In this document: piece after piece, positions 1 through 10,330 of the stretch
How positions within the stretch are numbered: position 1 is the first letter of the stretch
How the letters are laid out: every line of letters starts with the position of its first letter
NCBI GenBank assembly: GCA_016932955.1
Contig: JAFGBV010000006.1
Location: 1-10,330, forward strand
Source of the DNA: Anaerolineales bacterium
Lineage (GTDB): Bacteria > Chloroflexota > Anaerolineae > Anaerolineales > UBA4823
DNA: 10,330 nt
Direction: 5' to 3'
Position numbers and translations under genes: made by a program
The notes under the pieces: generated by a model
The model's database searches: none
Told to the model about the DNA's origin: nothing
Seen by the model: only the letters and a program-made list of their open reading frames with translations

Positions 1-671
1 TCGGCAGCCTCATTCACCAGGCGGATGGCTTCTGCCTTGCCCTGAGCGACTTGGATTACCGCTTCGCGTTCGCCCTCAGCGCGCTGGATGATCGCCAGTT
101 TTTGTTGTTCGGCAGCTTCGAACTCACCCGTTGCTAGCAGGCGCATGGATCGCCGCTCTTGTTCGGCTGTCTTTTGCTTATGCATGGCTTTCTTAATATC
201 CTCGGGTGGGTCGATCAGGCGAATTTCCACTTTGCTGACGGTCAAACCCCATTCAACAGCATAGGTGTTCAGGATGCGCTGCAGGTTGGTGGCAATCGTC
301 TCGCGCGCCACCAGGCTCTCGTCCAGAGTCAGATCCCCAAACTCCTGGCGCAGGTTGGTCATTGCCAGTTGGATAACCGCTCGCTTCCAATCGTCAATGT
401 TGTAAAACGTTTTTTTGATCGCCTCTTCCTCAATCGTAGGTCGTACCCACATAATCCCATCCACCTGGATTTCAACGTTGTCTTTGGTGATCACCGATTG
501 CGGGTGAATGTCCATAGTGTGCTCCCGGACGTCGCGGATACGGATAATATGGACGATTGGGATTTGAAATCCCAGGCCGGGAGTCACAAACCGGTGGTAC
601 TTTCCCAGCGTTTCCTGGATTCCCCGCTCGTAAGGTCGTAGAGTGTAAATTGGGCTATAGATGGTTCTCAT
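1..671 (-). CDS. SPFH/band-7 (stomatin/prohibitin-like) protein, C-terminus cut by window edge
   Basis: Reading the minus strand from ATG at 671 gives 223 open codons that run off the left edge. A GGAG ribosome-binding site lies 7 bases before the ATG. The protein opens with MRTIYSPIYTLRPYERGIQE, then a band-7 core (PGLGFQIPIVHIIRIRDVRE, followed by a DNVEIQVDGIMWVRP stretch and a segment like NLRQEFGDLTLDESLVARE). It continues into the long charged helix typical of stomatins (KQKTAEQERRSMRLLATGEFEAAEQQ, rich in E, A, Q and R). SPFH proteins form large ring or cage oligomers that scaffold membrane microdomains or regulate membrane proteases. Most have an N-terminal membrane anchor; here the SPFH domain begins almost at residue 1 and I see no TM segment, so membrane attachment would have to be peripheral or through the partner. 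It lies 35 bp downstream of the GlsB-like gene on the same strand and is probably co-transcribed with it. Family call is secure; the specific role is unknown. Confidence 0.88.
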   Translation of the reverse strand, partial: MRTIYSPIYTLRPYERGIQETLGKYHRFVTPGLGFQIPIVHIIRIRDVREHTMDIHPQSVITKDNVEIQVDGIMWVRPTIEEEAIKKTFYNIDDWKRAVIQLAMTNLRQEFGDLTLDESLVARETIATNLQRILNTYAVEWGLTVSKVEIRLIDPPEDIKKAMHKQKTAEQERRSMRLLATGEFEAAEQQKLAIIQRAEGEREAVIQVAQGKAEAIRLVNEAA

Positions 672-706
672 ATTGAAACTCCATTCTGATTTGATCATAA
701 CTGCCC

Positions 707-1014: not shown

Positions 1015-1048
1015 AATATACTGATGGAGAGTCTCAAAAGCGTCACAA
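1015..1048 (-). promoter_or_regulatory. SARP-type promoter of the GlsB-like gene
   Basis: Read on the minus strand: heptamer GTGACGC (1040-1046), 4 bp, heptamer GAGACTC (1029-1035), 8 bp, then -10 box TATATT (1020-1015). The ATG follows at 991. No -35 hexamer sits 17 bp upstream of the -10; that position is occupied by the boxes. The same heptamers, the same 11-bp period and the same 8-bp gap occur at 3229-3262 and 3742-3775. Shifting the frame two bases gives TTGTGAC/TTGAGAC, and another similar heptamer, TTGAACA, lies 22 bp (two periods) further up at 1064-1070. SARP activators are known to bind heptamer direct repeats on one helix face, with the last repeat about 8 bp from the -10. The match in geometry is seen in the sequence; the binding protein is inferred. 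Confidence 0.68.
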
Positions 1049-1069
1049 CACACTGCCTGGTTGTGTTCA
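1028..1069. repeat. 42-bp promoter repeat, copy 1
   Basis: This 42-bp stretch is 38/42 identical, without gaps, to 3242-3283. The four differences fall at 1040, 1049, 1052 and 1054. Identity extends well beyond the two heptamer boxes, up to 1069, covering a conserved block CAACCAGGC and a TGAACA on the minus strand. Both copies sit in the same orientation upstream of a small minus-strand membrane-protein gene. It could be a duplicated upstream control region, or strong selection on a multi-site operator. Confidence 0.85.
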
Positions 1070-1131
1070 ACGACGCACCTGTTTTAGGACAGTATGGATG
1101 GGTTCAACTAATAATTGCCGACAAGCGGTTA

Positions 1132-1410
1132 TCATTCATGAAATTCCAGCTCGATCCAGGTGGCCTCACAATAGACCTCCCGGTAACGAGCCAGGCGCAA
1201 CTGCTGGCTGGCAACCTGGGCAGCCAGCTCGGCTTCTAATTGGCGAATATGGGACTGTAATCCAAGAACCTGGCTGCGCAGGCGTAGGATTTTCTCAGCA
1301 GCAGCCTCGTCAACCCCCAAATCTTCCTTTAAGCGGCGCTGGCTGCGCGCTTCATAGCCTTCGTATGGGCCATACCAATACCTTTTTGGGGATGGATTTT
1401 TGGGAAGCAT
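1132..1410 (-). CDS. CbpM/MerR-C-terminal-like helical protein
   Basis: A 92-residue protein whose centre (RRLKEDLGVDEAAAEKILRL at about 25-44, then RSQVLGLQSHIRQLEAELA) resembles the last helix and coiled coil of MerR-like proteins of the CbpM/HspR type. In that family, R..RL..DLG...A....IL.L is followed by a dimerisation coil. The N-terminal MerR helix-turn-helix is missing; instead there are about 22 residues rich in aromatics (KRYWYGPYEGYE). DNA binding is therefore unlikely, and a role as chaperone modulator or dimeric adaptor is a guess. The start is supported by GAGGT six bases before ATG 1410. CbpM genes usually follow a DnaJ/CbpA gene; none is visible in the 242 bp upstream. The stop is followed by about 60 bp and then the control region of the GlsB-like gene. 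Confidence 0.6.
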   Translation of the reverse strand: MLPKNPSPKRYWYGPYEGYEARSQRRLKEDLGVDEAAAEKILRLRSQVLGLQSHIRQLEAELAAQVASQQLRLARYREVYCEATWIELEFHE

Positions 1411-1652
1411 ACGATTACCTCATCTTGGATACGGTTCAGAACGGTTTGGCCGTGAGGTGGCCAACGCGCCTATTTGCGCTGGCCAGATGGAAGCAACGAG
1501 AGCCAGAGTCGTTCAAAGTGACTTTGATTGATGCTCCAATAGATGCTCAAGCAAATTGCATTCTCGGCAATTCGCCGGTTTTAGAAAATGTTTTTGAGGA
1601 GAATTTCCGGCAAATTGCTTTGTGGGGGCGGAATTTGAATTGCCTGCCCATC
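1411..1652. other. Intergenic region with AATTGC-rich inverted repeats
   Basis: No coding region that I can support on either strand; the plus-strand frame open here overlaps the CbpM-like gene antisense and has no recognisable content. The stretch holds a perfect odd palindrome TCAAAGT-G-ACTTTGA (1513-1527), about 103 bp upstream of the CbpM-like start. It also holds an imperfect inverted repeat: GCAATTCGCCGG (1567-1578) against CCGGCAAATTGC (1607-1618), 11 of 12 bases pairing, with a 28-base loop. GCAAATTGC also occurs directly repeated at 1551 and 1610. The palindrome could be an operator for the CbpM-like gene, and the larger hairpin could end the upstream transcript of 1653-2222. Confidence 0.45.
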
Positions 1653-2222
1653 TTACGGTTTAGGGAAAAGGCTATTTTCCAATTGCACTAAGTTTTTTGT
1701 TAACTGATCCAACTCTGGCTGTACTAACGCGAGGTCGGTCTTCATCTCAGTCAATGCCTGAGCGGCACTCTGCTGCATGGCGGTGAGCACGTCTTTTTGA
1801 TCCGCCCCCACCAAGCCAGACAAGATATCCAGCGCTTCGGAGGCCTGGATCAACGATAAGCGCGCTCCAGCGTAATCGTCGGCGGCCACTGCCAGGCTGG
1901 CTCCGCGCACACCTGACAACGCCTTGAGCACGTACATGTGCAGTGTGGCGGAGACCAGATTCTCTTGCAGGGTCTCGTTATCCGTTTGCAATATTGTGAT
2001 CTGACCGGTTTTTTCTGCGATCGTCGCGTTGGCGGTCTCCAGGTCGGTGTTGGCTTTGTCGAGTTTCTGCCGGGTGGGGAAGTAGAGCGCAAAGGCGATT
2101 ATCAGCGCGCCCAACCCAAAGGCCAACAGCGCCACCAACACCCAGCGCAGGGCGCCGCGCATGGACTTTTGCAGGCGGGTTTCAGGCTTGCCCGTGGATA
2201 GGACGGATTCTTTTTCGTTCAT
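1653..2222 (-). CDS. Single-pass membrane protein with coiled coil, unknown function
   Basis: A 189-residue protein. Residues 1-25 are polar and basic, one TM helix covers about 26-48 (WVLVALLAFGLGALIIAFAL), and the rest is predicted soluble and strongly helical. About 51-92 reads as a coiled coil with regular I/L heptads (KLDKANTDLETANATIAEKT). About 95-145 looks like a helical hairpin (LKALSGVRGASLAVAADDYAGA, in the style of TPR-like bundles). About 150-185 is a second coil. No catalytic motif is seen. The short positive N-terminus suggests the coiled-coil part faces outside, but that is inference. The start is supported by AAAGGAAA 5 bases before ATG 2222. It lies 36 bp downstream of the lmo0937-like gene on the same strand. 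I do not recognise a named family. Confidence 0.8.
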   Translation of the reverse strand: MNEKESVLSTGKPETRLQKSMRGALRWVLVALLAFGLGALIIAFALYFPTRQKLDKANTDLETANATIAEKTGQITILQTDNETLQENLVSATLHMYVLKALSGVRGASLAVAADDYAGARLSLIQASEALDILSGLVGADQKDVLTAMQQSAAQALTEMKTDLALVQPELDQLTKNLVQLENSLFPKP

Positions 2223-2258
2223 TGGGTTTCCTTTCCCATTCGTTGAAGTTCGAGAGTC

Positions 2259-2423
2259 TTACACCACCCCAAGGAGGTGCAATATTAGGAGGATGAGGGC
2301 GAGAACGATCAGGATATGAATCCAATTCCCAGTGCGCGGAAACCTTGGACTGATATTCCGACCGAAAAAGCCGAACAGCCACAGTACGACTAATATGATG
2401 ATGATGATCCATAGTAACGGCAT
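2259..2423 (-). CDS. lmo0937-family (DUF5670-like) small membrane protein
   Basis: Starting at ATG 2423 gives 54 residues, MPLLWIIIIILVVLWLFGFF..., with a TM at about 3-21, a short loop GRNISPRFPRTGNWIHI, and a second TM at about 37-53 ending LLHLLGVV-like. The pattern LWxIxxxLxVLWLxGF ... GxxIHxLLVxAxxxLLxxLL is that of lmo0937-type proteins, small two-helix membrane proteins that cluster with GlsB, CsbD-like and other stress genes; their function is unknown. A TTG at 2474 would add 17 residues (MHDPNQSNLIKKKSRNL), but those are polar and lysine-rich, unlike the family N-terminus, so I prefer ATG 2423 even though its ribosome-binding site is poor. The four-isoleucine run is encoded by a short ATC repeat. 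Probably in one transcript with 1653-2222. Confidence 0.75.
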   Translation of the reverse strand: MPLLWIIIIILVVLWLFGFFGRNISPRFPRTGNWIHILIVLALILLILHLLGVV

Positions 2424-2464
2424 GAGATTTCTGCTTTTCTTTTTTATCAGGTTTGATTGGTTGG

Positions 2465-2498
2465 GGTCATGCAAAGGTCGTAGACCCTTCGCATGACC
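2465..2498. terminator. Hairpin between DUF6176-like and lmo0937-like genes
   Basis: GGTCATGC (2465-2472) pairs perfectly with GCATGACC (2491-2498). Inside, after one mismatch, AAGG-TC pairs with GACCCTT with a one-base bulge, leaving a loop of about three bases. It lies 17 bp downstream of the DUF6176-like stop. No T-run follows on either strand, so it is either a weak or factor-assisted terminator or an mRNA-processing or stability element. It also occupies the possible upstream TTG start (2474) of the next gene. Confidence 0.5.
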
Positions 2499-2514
2499 GT
2501 TTCAACAAGAAGGC

Positions 2515-2904
2515 TTAGCTCTTCTTGGGATTGCTAGAATTCAACATCCACTCAAAATGCACCTCTTGATTGGGTGGCAGCGGCGTTCGCACCGCGAATT
2601 GCTCATAACCGACCAGGTTGATACCGTGCAGCTCCTGTAACTGCTCCCGATACCAGGTGTCAAACGGGAGAACCGAGGCAATGATCTGCCCCAGCGCCTG
2701 GGCCATATCGGGAGCCTCCAGGGTGGTCACAGCGGTTGATCCGAAGGCGGTTTCCACCAATGCTAGCCGTTCGCGTGTGATGCCCAAGCGCTGGCGCGAG
2801 GCTTCGTACGGCTTTCGTCGAGAGCCAGCTAATTCTTGGCAAAACCGGCGCCAGGCTTCAACCTTACCGGCCAGAATGGGGAATGTCAGAACAATACCAG
2901 ACAT
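2515..2904 (-). CDS. DUF6176-like dimeric alpha/beta-barrel protein, unknown function
   Basis: A 129-residue soluble protein beginning MSGIVLTFPILAGKVEAWRR. The shape is beta strand (IVLTFPILAGK), helix (AWRRFCQELAGSRRKPYEAS), strand (LALVETAFGSTAVTTLEA), helix (DMAQALGQIIAS), and then a helix DTWYREQLQELHGI. This is the ferredoxin-like/ABM-type fold found in small DUF6176-like proteins, which act as dimers. No ligand residues can be assigned. The open frame extends to 2985, but the upstream 27 residues (NLVGELSCGNPAWGVTYPHG...) run across the intergenic region and carry no family similarity. ATG 2904 has AGAGAGG six bases upstream and begins exactly at the first strand, so I use it. The leader contains a small GGGGA/TCCCC stem (2928-2945). 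Confidence 0.7.
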   Translation of the reverse strand: MSGIVLTFPILAGKVEAWRRFCQELAGSRRKPYEASRQRLGITRERLALVETAFGSTAVTTLEAPDMAQALGQIIASVLPFDTWYREQLQELHGINLVGYEQFAVRTPLPPNQEVHFEWMLNSSNPKKS

Positions 2905-2977
2905 TGGGGGCCTCTCTCTGTTCCCGTGGGGATAAGTAACTCCCCAGGCAGGGTTACCGCAGCTTAATTCACCCACC

Positions 2978-3012
2978 AGATTCAAACACAGAAGCGCTCT
3001 GTGTTTGAATCT
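2978..3012. terminator. Perfect 15-bp stem hairpin after the 56-residue gene
   Basis: AGATTCAAACACAGA (2978-2992), a five-base loop AGCGC, and the exact reverse complement TCTGTGTTTGAATCT (2998-3012). It starts 3 bp beyond the stop of the minus-strand gene 3016-3186, so it most likely terminates or stabilises that transcript. There is no T-tract behind it on the minus strand (GGTGGGTGAAT follows), which is not typical of an intrinsic terminator. Confidence 0.7.
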
Positions 3013-3015
3013 GAA

Positions 3016-3186
3016 TCATAGGTTTTTAACCAGGGTTGCTAAAAGCAGGAGCCCTGCAGCAACCAGGGCGAGCCAGAAAGCATAAGGTGCGAGCACAGCG
3101 ATAACACCTGCGTGCCCGAGCAGCGCGAGTACGGCAAGCGCTAGAGCGATGAACCAAGTAATCTGTTTCGGCGGGGATAGTTTCAT
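3016..3186 (-). CDS. Small two-TM membrane protein, 56 residues
   Basis: Minus strand ATG 3186 to TGA 3016 encodes MKLSPPKQITWFIALALAVL followed by ALLGHAGVIAVLAPYAFWLA and LVAAGLLLLATLVKNL. Two hydrophobic helices lie at about 10-32 and 35-53, with a basic N-terminus and C-terminus, so both ends probably face the cytoplasm. AAGGAG lies eight bases before the ATG. A promoter with the shared double box and TATACT sits 43 bp upstream of the start, and a perfect hairpin ends the gene. Small proteins with an MKxSPPKxxTW... opening occur in diverse bacteria without assigned function; I recognise the style, not a named family. The shared promoter with the GlsB-like gene suggests a role in the same envelope-stress response (inference). 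Confidence 0.75.
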   Translation of the reverse strand: MKLSPPKQITWFIALALAVLALLGHAGVIAVLAPYAFWLALVAAGLLLLATLVKNL

Positions 3187-3228
3187 TATCAATTCTCCTT
3201 TTCCTTTTTGGTTATTACTTTTAGATTA

Positions 3229-3262
3229 AGTATAATGATCTAGAGTCTCAAAAACGTCACAA
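3229..3262 (-). promoter_or_regulatory. SARP-type promoter of the 56-residue membrane protein
   Basis: Minus strand: heptamer GTGACGT (3254-3260), 4 bp, heptamer GAGACTC (3243-3249), 8 bp, -10 box TATACT (3234-3229). The predicted leader is about 36 nt to ATG 3186. Spacing is identical to the copies at 1015-1048 and 3742-3775. A further related heptamer, ATGAACA (3278-3284), lies 22 bp above the distal box, as in the first copy. No -35 hexamer is visible. Confidence 0.68.
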
Positions 3263-3283
3263 GACGCGGCCTGGTTGTGTTCA
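3242..3283. repeat. 42-bp promoter repeat, copy 2
   Basis: Same orientation as copy 1 at 1028-1069, 38/42 identical and gap-free. It carries both heptamer boxes and the conserved upstream block, and lies upstream of the minus-strand 56-residue gene. Confidence 0.85.
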
Positions 3284-3343
3284 TCATCCCAACCTGCCGC
3301 TGCTGGGACTGTTACGTTGGGCTTCGATACAATTCTTCTCGCC

Positions 3344-3706
3344 TCAGCTGTATTGTTCTAGCCATTCCAGTATGGCGCGCACACTGCCGCTGGCAAGGGC
3401 CAGGCTCGTATCTGCCGCACCATAATACAACAGTTGGACCGTATCGCCATTGGATGTAAGGGCATAGCCACAGGGAAAAGTAATGTAGCCTACATCACCG
3501 CGCTGTTCATATGCTTCTTCCGGGCCAAATACCCAATGGTAGATCACCAGCCAACCCTGCGGGGTTTCGATGGGTGGCGGGCGACATGCCGATCTTGTTA
3601 ACGTCCCACCAGCCCCCAGTGGCGCTTCCAGCATTAGCTTGTGACTTCTTCGGTACGAGCGCGGTGCTGGATATTTCACCATAGTCCATGCCTGTAATAT
3701 CAACAC
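3344..3706 (-). pseudogene. GH130 glycoside phosphorylase/hydrolase remnant, truncated and frameshifted
   Basis: The 3' part reads PPPIETPQGWLVIYH, then WVFGPEEAYEQRGDVGYITF, then PCGYALTSNGDTVQLLYYGAADTSLALA: the C-terminal signature of GH130 enzymes, which phosphorolyse or hydrolyse beta-mannosides. Three defects are visible. (1) About two thirds of the enzyme, including the N-terminal catalytic blades, is absent. (2) The conserved stretch GWWDVNKIGMSP is in another frame: a missing base in the C-run at 3613-3617 opens it, and an extra base near 3578 closes it, so about 11 codons are out of phase. (3) VIYH joins directly to WVFGPEE near 3535, whereas family members have roughly 30 residues between. 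The reading frame nevertheless stays open from GTG 3706, behind AAGGAG and the shared promoter, so a 120-residue product could be made, but not an active GH130 enzyme. Family call is firm; the exact extent of decay is inferred without an alignment. Confidence 0.78.
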
Positions 3707-3720
3707 TTTTCTCCTTAATC

Positions 3721-3749
3721 TTGTCAGTTAGCTTTAGTTTACGTATAAC
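3721..3749 (+). promoter_or_regulatory. Sigma70-like promoter of the SARP/BTAD regulator
   Basis: TTGTCA (3721-3726), 17 bp spacer, TATAAC (3744-3749): a good housekeeping-type promoter pointing at ATG 3798 with a predicted leader of about 42 nt. Its -10 overlaps the -10 of the divergent minus-strand promoter (3742-3747) almost completely. The two transcription units therefore compete for the same DNA. The SARP-type boxes at 3756-3773 fall just downstream of this start site, where a bound protein could block it. Confidence 0.6.
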
Positions 3750-3775
3750 GAGCAGGGGCCTTAACAGCGTCACGG
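3742..3775 (-). promoter_or_regulatory. SARP-type promoter in front of the GH130 remnant
   Basis: Minus strand: heptamer GTGACGC (3767-3773), 4 bp, AAGGCCC (3756-3762), 8 bp, -10 box TATACG (3747-3742). The box sequence is more diverged than in the other two copies, but the 11-bp period, the 8-bp gap and the TATA position are the same to the base. Like those copies it has no -35. It lies in the intergenic region divergent to the SARP-like regulator, where autoregulated operators are common. Confidence 0.58.
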
Positions 3776-3800
3776 TAGCCGTGCATTTGCAGAACAAATG
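3771..3800 (+). promoter_or_regulatory. Two leader hairpins, one including the regulator start codon
   Basis: In the short leader of the regulator transcript, CACGG-TAG-CCGTG (3771-3783) is followed immediately by CATTTG-CAGAA-CAAATG (3784-3800), whose last three bases are the ATG. No Shine-Dalgarno sequence precedes the ATG. The second stem would bury the start codon, suggesting low or controlled translation. The stems are short (5 and 6 bp), so this may be chance. Confidence 0.4.
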
Positions 3801-6143
3801 TTATCGCTGCGTTTCATCACACTGGGACCGCCCGAAGTGTACCTGGGCGATAGCCTGCTTGCGTTCCCCACGCGCAAGACACTGGCGTTGGTGATCTACT
3901 TAGCGGCTGAGGCAGGTACGCAACCGCGTGAACACCTGGCTACCCTGCTGTGGCCTGAAGTGAGCCCTGAGCGCAGCTACGCCAGCCTGCGTAACACGCT
4001 CAGCCACCTGCAAACAGCCTTGCGCCAGGCGAGGAGCCGGGACCAATCATCCTACCTTTCCGTCACACACAATGCGCTGAGCCTGAATTCAGACGCCAAC
4101 ATTTCCCTTGACCTGCATACGGTAGGACAAGCATATGCCCTGGCACGCGCCGACCGTTCTAGCCGCATGCTGCAGGAGGGTTCGGCCAGCCTGCCTTTAT
4201 TGCAGGCGGCCGCGGCCTGCCAGCGCGGCGATTTTCTTGCCGGATTTTCGCTGGGCGATGCGCCTAGTTTCGACGATTGGGCCGCCATCCAGCGCGAAAT
4301 CTGGCATCGCCGTCTGGGTTTGATCTTCGACCGGCTGTCCGAAATTCAGTTTGCGCAGGGCGAGTTTGCTGGCGCCACGGATACTGCTTCGCATTGGATT
4401 GCCCTGGATGCGCTGAACGAAATTGCTTATCGCCGCAAGATGCGGGCGCACTTCGCGGCCGGCGAGCGCGGGCAGGCATTGGAGACCTATGAGGCGTGCT
4501 GACCCATGTTAACGGCTGAATTGGGCATCAAGCCAGAACCGGATACGGCGGCGCTGGCTGAGCGCATTCGCACACAGGCCCTCCCTTTACATCCTCACAT
4601 CCGTCACGCCGCGCCTCGGTCACGCCACCCCGACACTCCGGTTGCATTTCTGGGGAACCTGTTTGCCGGGCGCACTATCGAGTACCAGGAGCTTGTTCAC
4701 AGCTATGAGCGCGCCGCAGCCGGCCAACCTCAGCTGGTGGTGCTGCGCGGTGAGGCAGGAATTGGGAAGACCCGCTTAGCCAGGAAATTCTTAGCCTAGG
4801 CCAGCGCGCAGGGGGCTGAGTTGTTGCAGGGCGGCGCTTTCGAGAGCGGCAGCTATTGCCGTTTCAACCCCTGGTTGAGGCAGTGCGGCTGCGGCTCAAC
4901 CAGGAAAACTTTCCCCAGGATATCCTGGGGGGGTGTGGCAGCCATCTTTATGCCAACTGTTGCCAGAATGGCCCGCCCGCGCGCCAGATTTGCCCCAGGC
5001 CGCAAAAGAGACGGAAATAAGCCAGACGCAGCTCTTCGAACCCCTGGCGCAATTAACACTCGTCTTGGCCCAACGAGCGCCACTGGCGTTGTTCGTGGAC
5101 GATCTACAGTGGACAGATAGCGCCACGTTGGATCTGCTGCAATATATCATCCGGCGCTGGTGCGACAGTGCAGCATTATCTTCCAACGGGGGGCGGGTGT
5201 TACTGTTGGCCAGCCTGCGTTCAGAAGCTTTGCACCCAATGACCCAACCCCAGCAAACGGATGGGCCTCAAGGTTTGATCCAGTGGCTGGCGCGTGTGAC
5301 GCGTGAGTTAACCCCGGTTCACATCGAGTTGGCGCCGCTTGGGGAAGGTGAGACGGTGCAAATGGTACAGTCCATCCTGTCACCGCCCGCCACCGACTTC
5401 GCCCAATAGAAACCTTGAAGGATTTGCTCGAACGCCGCGTGCTGCATCCCAAACGGCGAGCGGAGGGGCAGTGGACCTTTGCAGTGGAGGCTGAACACGA
5501 TCTTGGGCAAGCAGTACGTGTCCCGTCTACCGTGCACGCTGTGATCCGTTCACGCTTGAACCGCCTCAGCCCGAATGCCTTCAGCTTGTTGGCGGGCGGA
5601 GCCGTACTCGAGCAGCAGCTCTCGTTTGAGCGCCTGTGCGCCATCGCTAATGTGGCCGAAGATTTGGCCTTGCCTGCCCTGGATGAATTGATCAGCAGCC
5701 GCCTCTTGCTAGAAGTGGTGCAGCCGGGTGTGGCTAGTGCGTATATCTTCACCAACGGCATGCTGCGCGATGTGGTGTATACCGAAGCTGGGGATGCACG
5801 GCGGCGGCTTTTCCACCGGCGGGCGCTGGAAACCCTCGAAGAGGCGGGTGAATCTGCTGCAGTGTTGGCTTACCATGCGCAGGCGGCCGGCCTGGCGCAG
5901 GCTGATTTCCACCACAGCCTGGCTGCCGGCCGAGAAGCGCTGCGCATCTCGGCGGTGAGTGAGGCCATCGTTCATTTCGAGCACGCCAGCCAACTCATGC
6001 GGGAAGCGTCGCTGCCAGAAATGCCAGGCAAAGTGGATGTGAGTGATCTGTACGTGCAGCTAAGCCGGGCCTATGAATTAAGCGGTCAGACGGGAAAGGC
6101 TTTGGCTATGGATGCTGAACGAGAAAGACTCCTATTGGATTAA
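3798..6143 (+). pseudogene. SARP-like BTAD/AAA-ATPase transcriptional regulator, multiply disrupted
   Basis: Domains in order: winged helix (MLSLRFITLGPPEVYLGDSL to about residue 90, with PTRKTLALVIYLA and SYASLRNTLSHLQTAL), BTAD helical domain (about 97-240), AAA ATPase with Walker A GEAGIGKT (4749-4772) and Walker B LFVDD followed by LQW (5089-5109), then the helical region to 6143. Such proteins are signal-responsive activators. Lesions: TGA at 4500-4502 where the family has Arg (EAC-R-AMLTAELGI); TAG at 4797-4799 probably replacing Trp; a lost base near 4857, after which PFQPLVEAVRLRLNQENFPQ is in another frame; a lost base in the G7 run 4927-4933, which restores frame at WQPSLCQLL; a deletion of about 13 codons near 5406 (DFAQ joined to IETLKDLLERR), creating TAG; and an early end at DAERERLLLD without the usual TPR-like C-terminus. 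Both nonsense codons fit single G:C to A:T changes. The first 234 codons are intact, so a stand-alone DNA-binding/BTAD protein of SARP size could still be made. Confidence 0.87.
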
Positions 6144-6934: not shown

Positions 6935-7891
6935 ATGTTTAGACGGATCATTCTCCCGTTGGATAGTTCAAAATTGGCAGAATGCGTTTTACCGCATCTG
7001 GTCGCCATTGGCCGAATCTGTGAGCCAGAGGTGCAATTGTTGCGCGTCTCGGAACCGTTTGGTGTGACAGCGCGCTTGCGTATGATTGACCCGGTGGATT
7101 GGCAGATTCGTAAAGCTGAGGCGGAGAGTTATCTCTCTGGTGTAGCTGCTCGCTTACAGAATGCCGGTCTGCGGGTATCCACGCATCTTTATGATGGCAG
7201 ACCCGCTGAACAAATTATTGAAGTAGCCCGCTCTTGGAATGCAGACTTGATCTTGATGAGCAGTCACGGGCAAAGCGGTATAAGCCCCTGGAATGTCAGC
7301 AGCGTTGTACAGCAGGTCATCCTGCGCGCGCACCGTTCCCTGATGATCATCCGGGCCTATCAATCCGTGAGCGTAGATTTGACAGGCCTGCATTACCGCA
7401 GGATCTTCCTTCCGTTGGATGGTTCCCAGCGATCGGAAATGTCACTGCCGTTAGCTGAAGCTCTGGCACGTGCCCACAGCAGCGAGATCCTGGCTGCCCA
7501 CATAGTTCGGCAGCCGGAACTGCCCCGCCGGACGTCTGCTTCACAGGAAGACTTGCTGCTGGTCAACCAATTGATGGAGCGGAATCGAGCCGAAGCCATC
7601 AAATATCTGGAAGACCTGAAATCCCGGATGGACATAGACATCCAGACGAAACTGGAGGTCAGTCCCAGTATTAGCCGTTCTTTGCACCAGATCGCTGATG
7701 AGAACAAAGTAGATTTGACGATTTTAAGCGCCCACGGGTATTCTGGCGACACACGCTGGCCCTTTGGCAGCGTGGGACTCGGCTTTATCGTTTACGGCAG
7801 CACACCACTGTTGATCCTGCAGGACCTGCCGATCGACCGGATTGAGCCAACCCAAGCGGAGATCGCTGCCCGGGAAACCGGAGGGCACTAA
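6935..7891 (+). CDS. Tandem-domain universal stress protein (UspA family)
   Basis: A 318-residue cytoplasmic protein of two UspA domains. Domain 1 (about 1-145) begins MFRRIILPLDSSKLAE and ends with the nucleotide loop SSHGQSGISPWNVSSV. Domain 2 (about 150-300) begins YRRIFLPLDGSQRSEMSLPL and ends SAHGYSGDTRWPFGSVGLGF. The ATP-binding pattern G-2x-G-...-GS is complete in domain 2 (GYSG then GS), while in domain 1 the final GS is SS. Domain 1 may therefore bind nucleotide poorly, with domain 2 the working site. Universal stress proteins help cells survive starvation, redox and envelope stress, often as nucleotide sensors. The start has AAGGAAGGG just before ATG 6935. It is followed after three bases by the glucan synthase start, so the two are almost surely one operon. 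Confidence 0.93.
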   Translation: MFRRIILPLDSSKLAECVLPHLVAIGRICEPEVQLLRVSEPFGVTARLRMIDPVDWQIRKAEAESYLSGVAARLQNAGLRVSTHLYDGRPAEQIIEVARSWNADLILMSSHGQSGISPWNVSSVVQQVILRAHRSLMIIRAYQSVSVDLTGLHYRRIFLPLDGSQRSEMSLPLAEALARAHSSEILAAHIVRQPELPRRTSASQEDLLLVNQLMERNRAEAIKYLEDLKSRMDIDIQTKLEVSPSISRSLHQIADENKVDLTILSAHGYSGDTRWPFGSVGLGFIVYGSTPLLILQDLPIDRIEPTQAEIAARETGGH

Positions 7892-7894
7892 CCC

Positions 7895-10330
7895 GTGCTG
7901 AACCAGGTTCCCATCATGCCGGCAGGGCTGCAGTCCGAGACCCAGCCGGGTAACCCGCCTGCCGACCTGGAGGCTCAAGGTCGCTGGTTGGCAGAAGATC
8001 ACCGCCGCCATGCCCAGGTACCGCCCAGCGCACGCACTAGCTCGTCGGGTATAGATTACAGATCATCAGGCCCGGCATTGCTCTTGTCGGCGCGTCTCCC
8101 CTGTTTTACCTCGATCCTTAAAGAAGCTGCCGGGCGCTTGCAAGCGCAAACATCGAAATCTGGACAGCTCTCGCCGGCTGCTGAATGGTTGCTGGACAAC
8201 TACTACATTGCGGCGCAGACGCTCCGCGAAGTGCGGCAAGATCTGCCGCCACATTATGAGCGCCAACTCCCCCGCTTGCAAGCAGGGCTCCCGCGCATCT
8301 ACGATCTCACCACAAAGATAATCCAAACCGAGAATGCCCTGCTCGACCTGGGGCGTGTCCAGAGCTTCGTACATGCCTACCAGGATGTGCTCCCGCTCAC
8401 TATGGGCGAGTTGTGGGCACTGCCGACCATGCTGCGTCTGGGGATTCTGGAATGCCTTTTGGCGGCGAGTGCCCGGCTCACAGAGCTCGCAGATGGCGCG
8501 ATCACAGAGATTGCACCCGTCTTGAAACCCTCTGGGCAACTGGACGACCAGCTCATAGTTGAGAACAGTATCCGCAGCCTGCGCTCCCTGGCAGTTTTTG
8601 ATTGGAAACGCTTCTTTGAAACCTTAAGTTTGGTCGAGGTTACCCTGCGCCAGGATCCGGCGGGGCTGTATACCGGGATGGACTTTGAGACACGCGACCT
8701 TTACCGGAAGGCCGTTGAAGAAATTGCTAATTATGGGCAGGGAGATGAACTGGCAGTCTCCCGAGGTGCCATTAGCCTGGCACGCGCTGGGGTAGACCAG
8801 CTTACCCAGTTTCCTGCGCTAGCCTCGCAAGAATTGCCGGACCTGGATAGGCATAAAGACCTGAAAGTCCAACCGGACGGCTGGGATGAATTCCGTTCGC
8901 AACCTAGCGCGCATGTCGGGTATTATCTCCTAGGCCAAGGTCGCCAGGTGCTGGAACAGGCTTTCGGGTACACTCCGAAAGGATGGCGACGGTTGGAGCG
9001 CTTCATCCGTAGCCATCCTACCCAACTTTACCTGGGATCGATCGCAAGCCTATCGCTGGGATTGATGATTATTCCTCTGGTCCTTGCCGCCATAGTCAGA
9101 GCGCCGATGTTCGGACTCCTGATGGTTTTCATTCTCGCCTTGGTTCCGGCACTGACGATCACTGTAGACCTGGTCAACTGGGCGGTTACCCAGGTCATCA
9201 AGCCTGAGGGCCTACCGCACATGGATTTCAGTCGGGGATTACCAGATGAGTGTGCGGCCTTGATTGTCATCCCGGCTTTGCTCTCTGGACCGGGTGAGGT
9301 CGATTCACTGGTGTCGCAGTTGGAGCAGCAATACTTGCGCAACACCGACCCGGGGCTTTTCTTTGCCCTGGTGACCGATTACACGGATTCCCCGACGAAA
9401 AATCAACCCGGTGATGCCGACCTGGTCGCAAGGGCGCGGCAAGGGATACGAGGTTTGAATGAAAAATACCGGCAGAAAAGGTCGGGGCCTTTCACTGAGG
9501 GGTGCTTCGCCCTCCTTCAGCGAGAGCGACGCTGGAATCCCTCCGAAGGCGTTTGGATGGGCTGGGAGCGTAAGCGCGGCAAGCTGCACGAGCTAAATCG
9601 CTTGATCCTGGCAGAGCAAGGCGCTTCCCTGGATAGCCATACTCCTGTTCCAGAGTCCTCATTCCCAATCCGCGAGGGAGATCTATCCTTCCTTCAGCAC
9701 GTACGCTACGTCATAACCCTAGATTCTGACACAGTCCTGCCCCGCGACGCTGCCCGGGAATTGATTGCAGTCCTGGCTCATCCCCTGAACCGCGCCCATC
9801 TCAAACCTGTAGGCGCGGGTGAAAGCGGCGAAGAAGTTGTTTCGGGATATACCATTCTCCAGCCGCGCACCGATATCAATCCGCTCAGCAGCAGCGCGTC
9901 TTACTTCACGCGTATCTTCTCGGGGGATAATGGCCTTGACCTTTATACCAGGGCAGTATCGGATGTCTATCAGGACCTCTTTGGAGAAGGCAGCTATATC
10001 GGTAAGGGAGCCTACGAGGTTGATAGCTTCGAGCGCAGCTTGGAGAATTGCATCCCCGAAAATTCCCTGCTCAGCCACGACCTGCTAGAGGGCATTCACG
10101 GTCGAACTGCTTTGGTGACCAGTACCGTCCTGATCGAAGATATGCCGCCTAGCTATTTGGTACATGCCCGCCGACTTCACCGCTGGACGCGTGGCGATTG
10201 GCAACTCCTACCATGGCTGTTCTCGCCCCGCCTGTCGGCGATTAGCCGTTGGAAGATACTGGATAACCTGCGGCGCAGCCTGGTACCCTGCTCTCTTCTA
10301 CTGTGGTTCCTGGCCGGTTGGCTAATTCAA
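7895..10330 (+). CDS. ndvB: NdvB-like cyclic beta-1,2-glucan synthase (GT84), N-terminal part
   Basis: 812 codons stay open to the window edge. The protein should make a beta-1,2-glucan from UDP-glucose at the inner membrane; full-length enzymes are about 2,800 residues, with a GH94 phosphorylase-like domain at the C-terminus, here beyond the edge. Seen in order: an N-terminal helical domain with the hallmark PAAEWLLDNYYIAAQTLREV (about 96-115) and LTMGELWALPTMLRL; two TM helices at about 378-430; the glycosyltransferase with ALIVIPALLSG (about 455), RRWNPSEGVWMGWERKRGK, the DxD motif TLDSDTVLPRDAARE (D610, D612), TRAVSDVYQDLFGEGSYIGK, SHDLLEG (from 727) and RRLHRWTRGDWQ (759-770); and a TM beginning near 790. 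The start is chosen as GTG 7895, because GGAGGG lies nine bases upstream inside the uspA end. ATG 7916 in the same frame has no good site. Cyclic glucans act in osmotic adaptation and surface interactions; pairing with a stress protein fits this. Confidence 0.93.
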   Translation, partial: MLNQVPIMPAGLQSETQPGNPPADLEAQGRWLAEDHRRHAQVPPSARTSSSGIDYRSSGPALLLSARLPCFTSILKEAAGRLQAQTSKSGQLSPAAEWLLDNYYIAAQTLREVRQDLPPHYERQLPRLQAGLPRIYDLTTKIIQTENALLDLGRVQSFVHAYQDVLPLTMGELWALPTMLRLGILECLLAASARLTELADGAITEIAPVLKPSGQLDDQLIVENSIRSLRSLAVFDWKRFFETLSLVEVTLRQDPAGLYTGMDFETRDLYRKAVEEIANYGQGDELAVSRGAISLARAGVDQLTQFPALASQELPDLDRHKDLKVQPDGWDEFRSQPSAHVGYYLLGQGRQVLEQAFGYTPKGWRRLERFIRSHPTQLYLGSIASLSLGLMIIPLVLAAIVRAPMFGLLMVFILALVPALTITVDLVNWAVTQVIKPEGLPHMDFSRGLPDECAALIVIPALLSGPGEVDSLVSQLEQQYLRNTDPGLFFALVTDYTDSPTKNQPGDADLVARARQGIRGLNEKYRQKRSGPFTEGCFALLQRERRWNPSEGVWMGWERKRGKLHELNRLILAEQGASLDSHTPVPESSFPIREGDLSFLQHVRYVITLDSDTVLPRDAARELIAVLAHPLNRAHLKPVGAGESGEEVVSGYTILQPRTDINPLSSSASYFTRIFSGDNGLDLYTRAVSDVYQDLFGEGSYIGKGAYEVDSFERSLENCIPENSLLSHDLLEGIHGRTALVTSTVLIEDMPPSYLVHARRLHRWTRGDWQLLPWLFSPRLSAISRWKILDNLRRSLVPCSLLLWFLAGWLIQ

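Follow-up and report, generated by a model that had tools for sequence, protein, structure and literature searches.

The window analysed here, 10,330 nucleotides from the first position of contig JAFGBV010000006.1 of an Anaerolineales bacterium (phylum Chloroflexota), carries three copies of a 34-bp promoter-like element. Read directly in the window sequence, they run on the minus strand from 1048 to 1015 (site 1), from 3262 to 3229 (site 2) and from 3775 to 3742 (site 3). Sites 1 and 2 precede genes for small membrane proteins, and site 3 adjoins the remains of a divergent gene for a SARP-type regulator (Table 1). The element, two 11-bp direct repeats followed by a TATACT −10 box, was found in 15 genomes, where it is tied to one regulator composed of a winged helix-turn-helix (wHTH), a BTAD domain and an AAA_16 ATPase. 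We consider it likely that each 34-bp element is a promoter dependent on this SARP, whose binding we infer from the sequence of the repeats and their distribution among genomes.

In all three sites of the window the gap from GTGACG to TATA is exactly 20 bp and that from the second heptamer to TATA is 8 bp. Strand, positions and spacing are thus as an earlier sequence-only reading of this DNA had given them. At up to three mismatches the window contains these three matches only; shuffled windows had 0.05 sites on average, and three or more sites were seen in 0 of 200 shuffles. The same reading had noted the lack of a −35, and none is recognisable ahead of the TATACT −10. Scores come from a matrix of 22 sites, which includes sites 1 and 2 and leaves out site 3. 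Site 3 departs from the consensus by CC for TT, AAGGCCC and TATACG.

Table 1. Features of the window (positions in the 10,330-nucleotide stretch)
Feature	Position	Strand	Remarks
Site 1	1015..1048	minus	TTGTGACGCTTTTGAGACTC N8 TATATT; candidate SARP box and −10; 50.6 bits
Site 2	3229..3262	minus	TTGTGACGTTTTTGAGACTC N8 TATACT; near-perfect consensus; 57.6 bits, the top score
Site 3	3742..3775	minus	Degenerate copy adjoining the broken SARP gene; 14.4 bits
SPFH/Band_7 protein	3..698, runs off the window	minus	Second gene after site 1; PF01145, 8.6e-34
GlsB/Transgly_assoc-like membrane protein, 94 aa	707..991	minus	First gene after site 1
Family C5 membrane protein, 189 aa	1653..2222	minus	Homologues in L031, L036, L039 and L123; recurs in regulon clusters
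lmo0937-family/DUF5670 small membrane protein	2259..2474	minus	PF18919; NF033488 above cut-off
Family C1 conserved protein, 129 aa	2515..2904	minus	Start set from the MSGIVLTF of orthologues
Protein with two transmembrane segments, 58 aa	3016..3192	minus	First gene after site 2; open reading frame with a homologue in L045
GH130 gene remnant	3344..3706	minus	After site 3; PF04041, 9.4e-14, C-terminal part
SARP pseudogene	3786..6143	plus	Orthologous to the wHTH, BTAD and AAA_16 protein

The earlier claim that one copy lies divergent to a SARP/BTAD gene holds for the arrangement, with the qualification that the gene is broken and its site decaying. In the window gene the orthologous start codon is replaced (the next ATG is four codons on), and there are two in-frame stops and two frame changes. 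The decay of site 3 fits its place beside a dead SARP gene. Since sites 1 and 2 are intact while the SARP gene of the window is broken, their preservation would call for another SARP elsewhere in the genome or for a very recent loss.

Alignment with relatives redefines the repeat. The unit, TTGWGACnCTn, recurs every 11 bp, part of the linker being conserved too, and the element is best read as TTGWGAC, N4, TTGAGAC, N10, TATACT, the second heptamer ending 10 bp before TATACT. Of the original description, the direct repeats and their period stand; the heptamer register does not, as the better unit starts two bases further upstream. Although the search pattern behind the alignment of 23 sites had asked only for TANNNT at the −10, the full TATACT is conserved, as are TT before GTGACG and TC before the −10, bases that the pattern had not specified. 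With the −10 set at −12 to −7, the repeat units fall at −40 to −30 and −29 to −19, and this geometry equals that of the AfsR afs box. In the original heptamer register the repeats also lie as described for SARP promoters, where, by the excerpted text of PMC10936776, repeats are 11 (or 22) bp apart and the 3′ repeat is 8 bp from the −10. It should be noted that this geometry, taken by itself, cannot tell a SARP from a PhoB-type regulator. A spacing so strictly fixed, together with the stress-type gene list described below, might also come from an alternative or ECF sigma factor, with the GTGACG...GAGAC stretch acting as its −35. We regard such a promoter as very improbable: the 11-bp repeats in tandem, together with a TATACT −10 of ordinary type, are in keeping with an activator working with the housekeeping sigma factor, and no sigma factor was present among the locus proteins scanned with Pfam, a scan that reached the minority of neighbours.

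In a scan across species the motif came up only in related bacteria. GTGACGYTTTTGAGACYCN8TA was searched for in a collection in which 84,980 species are represented by a single genome each, and eight stretches matched, all of them in metagenome-assembled genomes titled Chloroflexota, Chloroflexi or Anaerolineales; six of the eight have TATACT. Six whole genomes were among these matches, and five of them together held 16 sites. The sequence-only reading had called for a scan of related genomes against chance, and the outcome was favorable: a chosen set of 30 genomes had 35 sites in the 14 genomes with a SARP orthologue and none in the other 16. The reversed pattern, used as a control, gave 0 in both of these scans and in the order, family and class searches described below. 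Two matches look like chance and were set aside, one in locus L007 (TTACC in place of TATA) and a strict-pattern match in genome G016 (TAGGGT); G and L numbers are our handles for genomes and loci.

Upstream of the box, sites 1 and 2 have TGAACACAACCAGGC in common (1049-1075 and 3263-3290), and in 5 of 23 sites away from the SARP gene GGCGT and one further base stand immediately 5′ of TTG. The sequence common to sites 1 and 2 could be a further element or could be left over from the duplication of a promoter, and some of the promoters may have arisen in that way. It lends something to the view that no common regulator exists and that the sites resemble one another by chance or as copies of a promoter segment that was duplicated or mobile. 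That view has hardly any probability in our estimate. Across genomes the box and the −10 are fixed while the linker base and the NNN before the −10 vary freely, and the reversed pattern found nothing; chance origin is rejected by that control and by the shuffles.

The link to the SARP comes mainly from co-occurrence. An alignment of seven proteins served as the query for orthologues in 201 genomes of the order, and the same genomes were searched for sites with up to three mismatches. The motif was present in 11 of 11 genomes with an orthologue and in 1 of 190 without (Fisher's test, 3e-17). The family set of 38 genomes, which has genomes in common with the order set, gave 5 of 5 with and 0 of 33 without (Fisher's test, 2e-6), the genomes with sites (G001, G002, G004, G140 and G565) being exactly the five that carry the orthologue. 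In the class set, where a stricter pattern was used, a site was found in 4 of 396 genomes, and all four have the orthologue. Nine of the order orthologues are clear (above 1250 bits), one (G004) is cut by a contig end and one (G187) is a broken fragment of 326 bits over 192 positions; the next intact protein after the clear orthologues scored 716 bits. Five sites of the order set (G004, G016, G090, G135 and G187) were missed by the strict DNA pattern and reached through the protein.

Position points the same way. A divergent site lies at the start of 15 of the 15 orthologues found, as against 0 of 19 paralogue loci, and these 19 other BTAD loci have no site match of at least 8 bits. In 9 of 14 loci the box and the start of the called SARP reading frame are 8-22 bp apart, and in G565 homology begins 11 bp away. 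In the remaining five (L040, L042, L043, L118 and L119) the SARP start is not fixed because the mechanically called reading frame extends into the box. A candidate divergent box, TTGTAAC-N4-TTGTCAC-N10-TAGAAT, is also seen at the nearest outgroup SARP (G075, L064), some 30 bp ahead of the BTAD reading frame. No other site of this kind was found in that genome, so the box, which may be a diverged form of this wiring, is a lead only.

Several observations count against SARP dependence or soften the case for it. The Fisher values are overstated because the genomes are related, and in the orthologue search at most five candidates were scored per genome. Counting G187 as an orthologue was partly after the fact; without it the order set reads 10 of 10 against 2 of 191. 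G187 (L071/L123) is the second genome with a broken SARP orthologue, and its divergent site is well kept. The twelfth genome with a match in the order set, G028, has a three-mismatch site and no orthologue. Similarly, the L045 locus of G003 has a box with a poor −10, TAAGAT, and no SARP was found in that genome. In six genomes (G016, G090, G135, G187, G459 and G551) the SARP-divergent site is the sole site at up to three mismatches. In G016 (L122:5043-7583) that site (31.5 bits) overlaps the end of an 846-aa reading frame in the SARP direction and is followed by no gene; perhaps autoregulation alone is left there. As to the protein, the profile match to AfsR described below weakens to E 0.39 with a wider alignment (A2), and the structure model (predicted local distance difference test score, pLDDT, 58) is too weak to stand alone.

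The main competitor is another OmpR/PhoB-type winged-helix response regulator that would bind the 11-bp repeats, the SARP gene being just one divergent member of its regulon. Pho boxes, in the excerpts of PMC4415409, likewise consist of two 11-nt direct repeats with head-to-tail binding and sigma contact, and a family of OmpR-type response regulators (Response_reg with Trans_reg_C) occurs in 4 of the 26 mapped loci (L031, L032, L037 and L038). Within the mapped loci, however, these regulators lie 7-9 kb from the sites, none touches one, and such regulators are common. The SARP orthologue, on the other hand, follows the motif genome by genome and always adjoins one copy, and the geometry suits a SARP too. 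On the evidence of these loci a response regulator seems unlikely, with some probability left for one encoded elsewhere in the genomes and distributed like the motif. The SARP link that the sequence-only reading had drawn by inference is supported by the co-occurrence, the adjacency, the SARP domain of the protein and the stress-like genes behind the sites, and SARP-dependent promoters are what these data most plausibly reflect.

The intact orthologue has about 800 aa, with BTAD (2.1e-19) and AAA_16 called by Pfam and no TPR domain called. It shows the SARP order of an N-terminal OmpR-type wHTH followed by BTAD. Profile matches in the PDB were to EmbR and to AfsR (8hvr; E 4e-4 over 7-263 when alignment A1, of seven rows, was used), and the predicted structure has AfsR complexes and EmbR as its top Foldseek matches. 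The NCBIfam AfsR equivalog model, NF053617, matches over 7-333 (E 2.8e-13) at 48.8 bits, far under its cut-off of 1430 bits. Its best NCBIfam match, TIGR03903, is on the ATPase part (99.9 bits, below cut-off). The protein thus counts as a relative with a SARP domain and not as AfsR. Proteins of this type are numerous: in a metagenomic protein set 905 SARP-type proteins, not all of them orthologues, were found at E ≤ 1e-60 among 7998 candidates scored.

The copy of the element at the SARP gene has a feature of its own. The −10 context of SARP-divergent copies is ATTATACT (ATTATAGT once), so that the SARP strand reads TATAAT. This mirrored −10 (ATTATA) is present in 14 of 14 SARP-divergent sites and 3 of 23 others (Fisher's test, 1e-7); when G565 is added the counts are 15 of 15 and 4 of 26 (6e-8). 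Overlapping mirrored −10 hexamers between divergent genes are a mark of bidirectional promoters with a shared −10. In 10 of 14 copies the end of the box on the SARP strand is AAGGA, at the Shine-Dalgarno position ahead of the start codon. Together with the TATAAT this predicts that the SARP transcript starts at the edge of the box and carries it in its 5′ untranslated region (UTR). The pattern suggests that a single −10 serves both directions and that the box lies inside the SARP 5′ UTR. Common descent alone is a poor explanation, since columns 21-23 of the SARP-divergent set vary freely (0.1-0.2 bits). Other facts pull the opposite way: the mirrored −10s form one orthologous set, the decayed site 3 of the window has none, and a search for a −35 in the SARP direction found none (2.7 matches vs. 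2.45 in shuffled sequence).

Mapping of the putative regulon used 37 sites of at least 25 bits in 26 loci, two of the sites being in the window; the G003 site and site 3 are left out of these counts. With 60-bp margins, 1 of 37 sites is inside a called reading frame of at least 150 aa, as against 70.5% of bases by the same measure. When the margins are dropped, 11 of the 37 sites touch a called frame of at least 100 aa; five of these frames are over-extended SARP genes, two are over-extended C1 genes, three (121-147 aa) belong to no named family and the last is the 846-aa frame in G016, touched at its end. A reading frame on the same strand starts within 400 bp of the site in 30 of 37 cases and further away in four; none was seen in three (two contig ends and G016).

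The families found after sites are many: GlsB/CsbD, YtxH, YegS-type lipid kinase, AI-2E-type permeases, BrkB, PAP2, DUF3597, DUF5666/FecR, SPFH, DUF5670/lmo0937, Usp with a large protein, Cpn10/Cpn60, RRM, AHSA1-like, ice-binding-like, glycosyltransferase (GT) with GH130, and guanylate cyclase. Many of these genes are stress-like across the mapped loci, which supports the candidate stress regulon proposed in the sequence-only reading. The GlsB-like protein of the window scores 25.1 bits with PF04226, just below the cut-off of 25.3, and has relatives behind sites in L044, L115 and L147. SPFH relatives are downstream of sites in L031 and L121, and in L041 a 330-aa homologue of the GH130 remnant comes second after a site. 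C1 accompanies SARP-divergent sites more often than any other family, and in 10 of 15 loci it is among the first two reading frames behind them. Its predicted fold is ferredoxin-like alpha/beta, with no PDB match at E ≤ 0.001; its homologue in L031 had no match in Pfam or NCBIfam, and 1331 of 1369 candidates in the metagenomic protein set were relatives. Pfam and NCBIfam scans gave no match for the 58-aa protein with two transmembrane segments either. At 6935-10330 the window has a Usp gene followed by a large protein, with no site ahead of the pair in the window; in L033 this pair comes after a site, and the L118 cluster contains it as well. In G009 (L117:4728-6239) a site stands ahead of groES-groEL, and chaperonins may belong to the regulon in this one genome.

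We propose the following mechanism. Two SARP protomers would sit side by side on the repeats at −40 to −19 and offer a docking surface for sigma region 4 in place of a −35, as AfsR does at afsS. This would activate envelope and general-stress operons (GlsB/CsbD, SPFH, YtxH, lmo0937-like, BrkB, PAP2, AI-2E-type permeases, Usp and GroESL), the signal presumably being sensed by the ATPase part. As the −10 is mirrored at the SARP copy, the SARP gene is probably transcribed from the same −10 in the opposite direction (ATTATACT / AGTATAAT), and the box would then be in the SARP 5′ UTR, just before the Shine-Dalgarno sequence. An active SARP would turn the stress operon on and its own transcription off. 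Such autorepression through the shared −10 is a hypothesis to which we give even chances. A bolder version is that a SARP with a STAND-like ATPase serves as general stress master regulator in some Anaerolineales through sigma appropriation (cf. SigB/RpoS), one symmetric −10 with its box firing the stress operon and, when occupied, silencing the regulator's own gene; this is possible, but we would put it somewhat short of an even chance.

The general-stress regulon of SigB in Firmicutes has CsbD-, GlsB-, YtxH- and lmo0937-type genes, a gene content similar to the present list, and is under an alternative sigma factor, not a SARP. Among the top-ranked papers, subscription papers and preprints excluded, we found no published regulon of this kind for the present group. 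Three points are new beyond what the sequence-only reading had claimed: a candidate regulon spanning the lineage, a co-occurrence that is close to perfect, and the mirrored −10 at the regulator's gene. As the box is defined and both a candidate regulator and a list of genes are at hand, the proposal can be tested in vitro without culturing. If it is true, SARP control, familiar for antibiotic genes in Actinobacteria, extends to a stress regulon of another phylum, and the sharing of a −10 suggests a compact self-limiting device for an activator.

Among described systems, AfsR of Streptomyces coelicolor offers the closest parallel for the box. According to the excerpts of PMC10936776, the 22-bp afs box of the afsS promoter is centred at −29.5, its upstream repeat is at −40 to −30, and in the AfsR structure sigma region 4 sits on the SARP protomers. 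Both systems have an OmpR-type wHTH with a BTA domain, an extra ATPase domain, two 11-bp repeats and a poor or absent −35. They differ in that the present regulator belongs to Chloroflexota, the repeat sequence is another one, the ATPase is AAA_16 and no TPR was called. SARPs usually govern antibiotic or secondary-metabolite genes; the genes scanned behind the sites here are mostly stress and envelope genes rather than those of antibiotic regulation, and the box may double as the regulator's 5′ UTR. PhoB shares the tandem repeats, the mode of binding and the sigma contact set out above, but it is a two-component response regulator of phosphate genes whose E. coli heptamer is CTGTCAT (PMC4415409, excerpt). 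For the mirrored −10 the nearest described analogue is SoxR at soxR/soxS, which, in the excerpted text of PMC12825309, switches on the divergent gene while blocking expression of its own at a shared pseudo-symmetrical −10. SoxR is of the MerR family, whereas a SARP box is involved here, and the predicted distance between starts is about 21 bp, compared with the common 18, 10 or 23 of bidirectional promoters (PMC12825309, excerpt).

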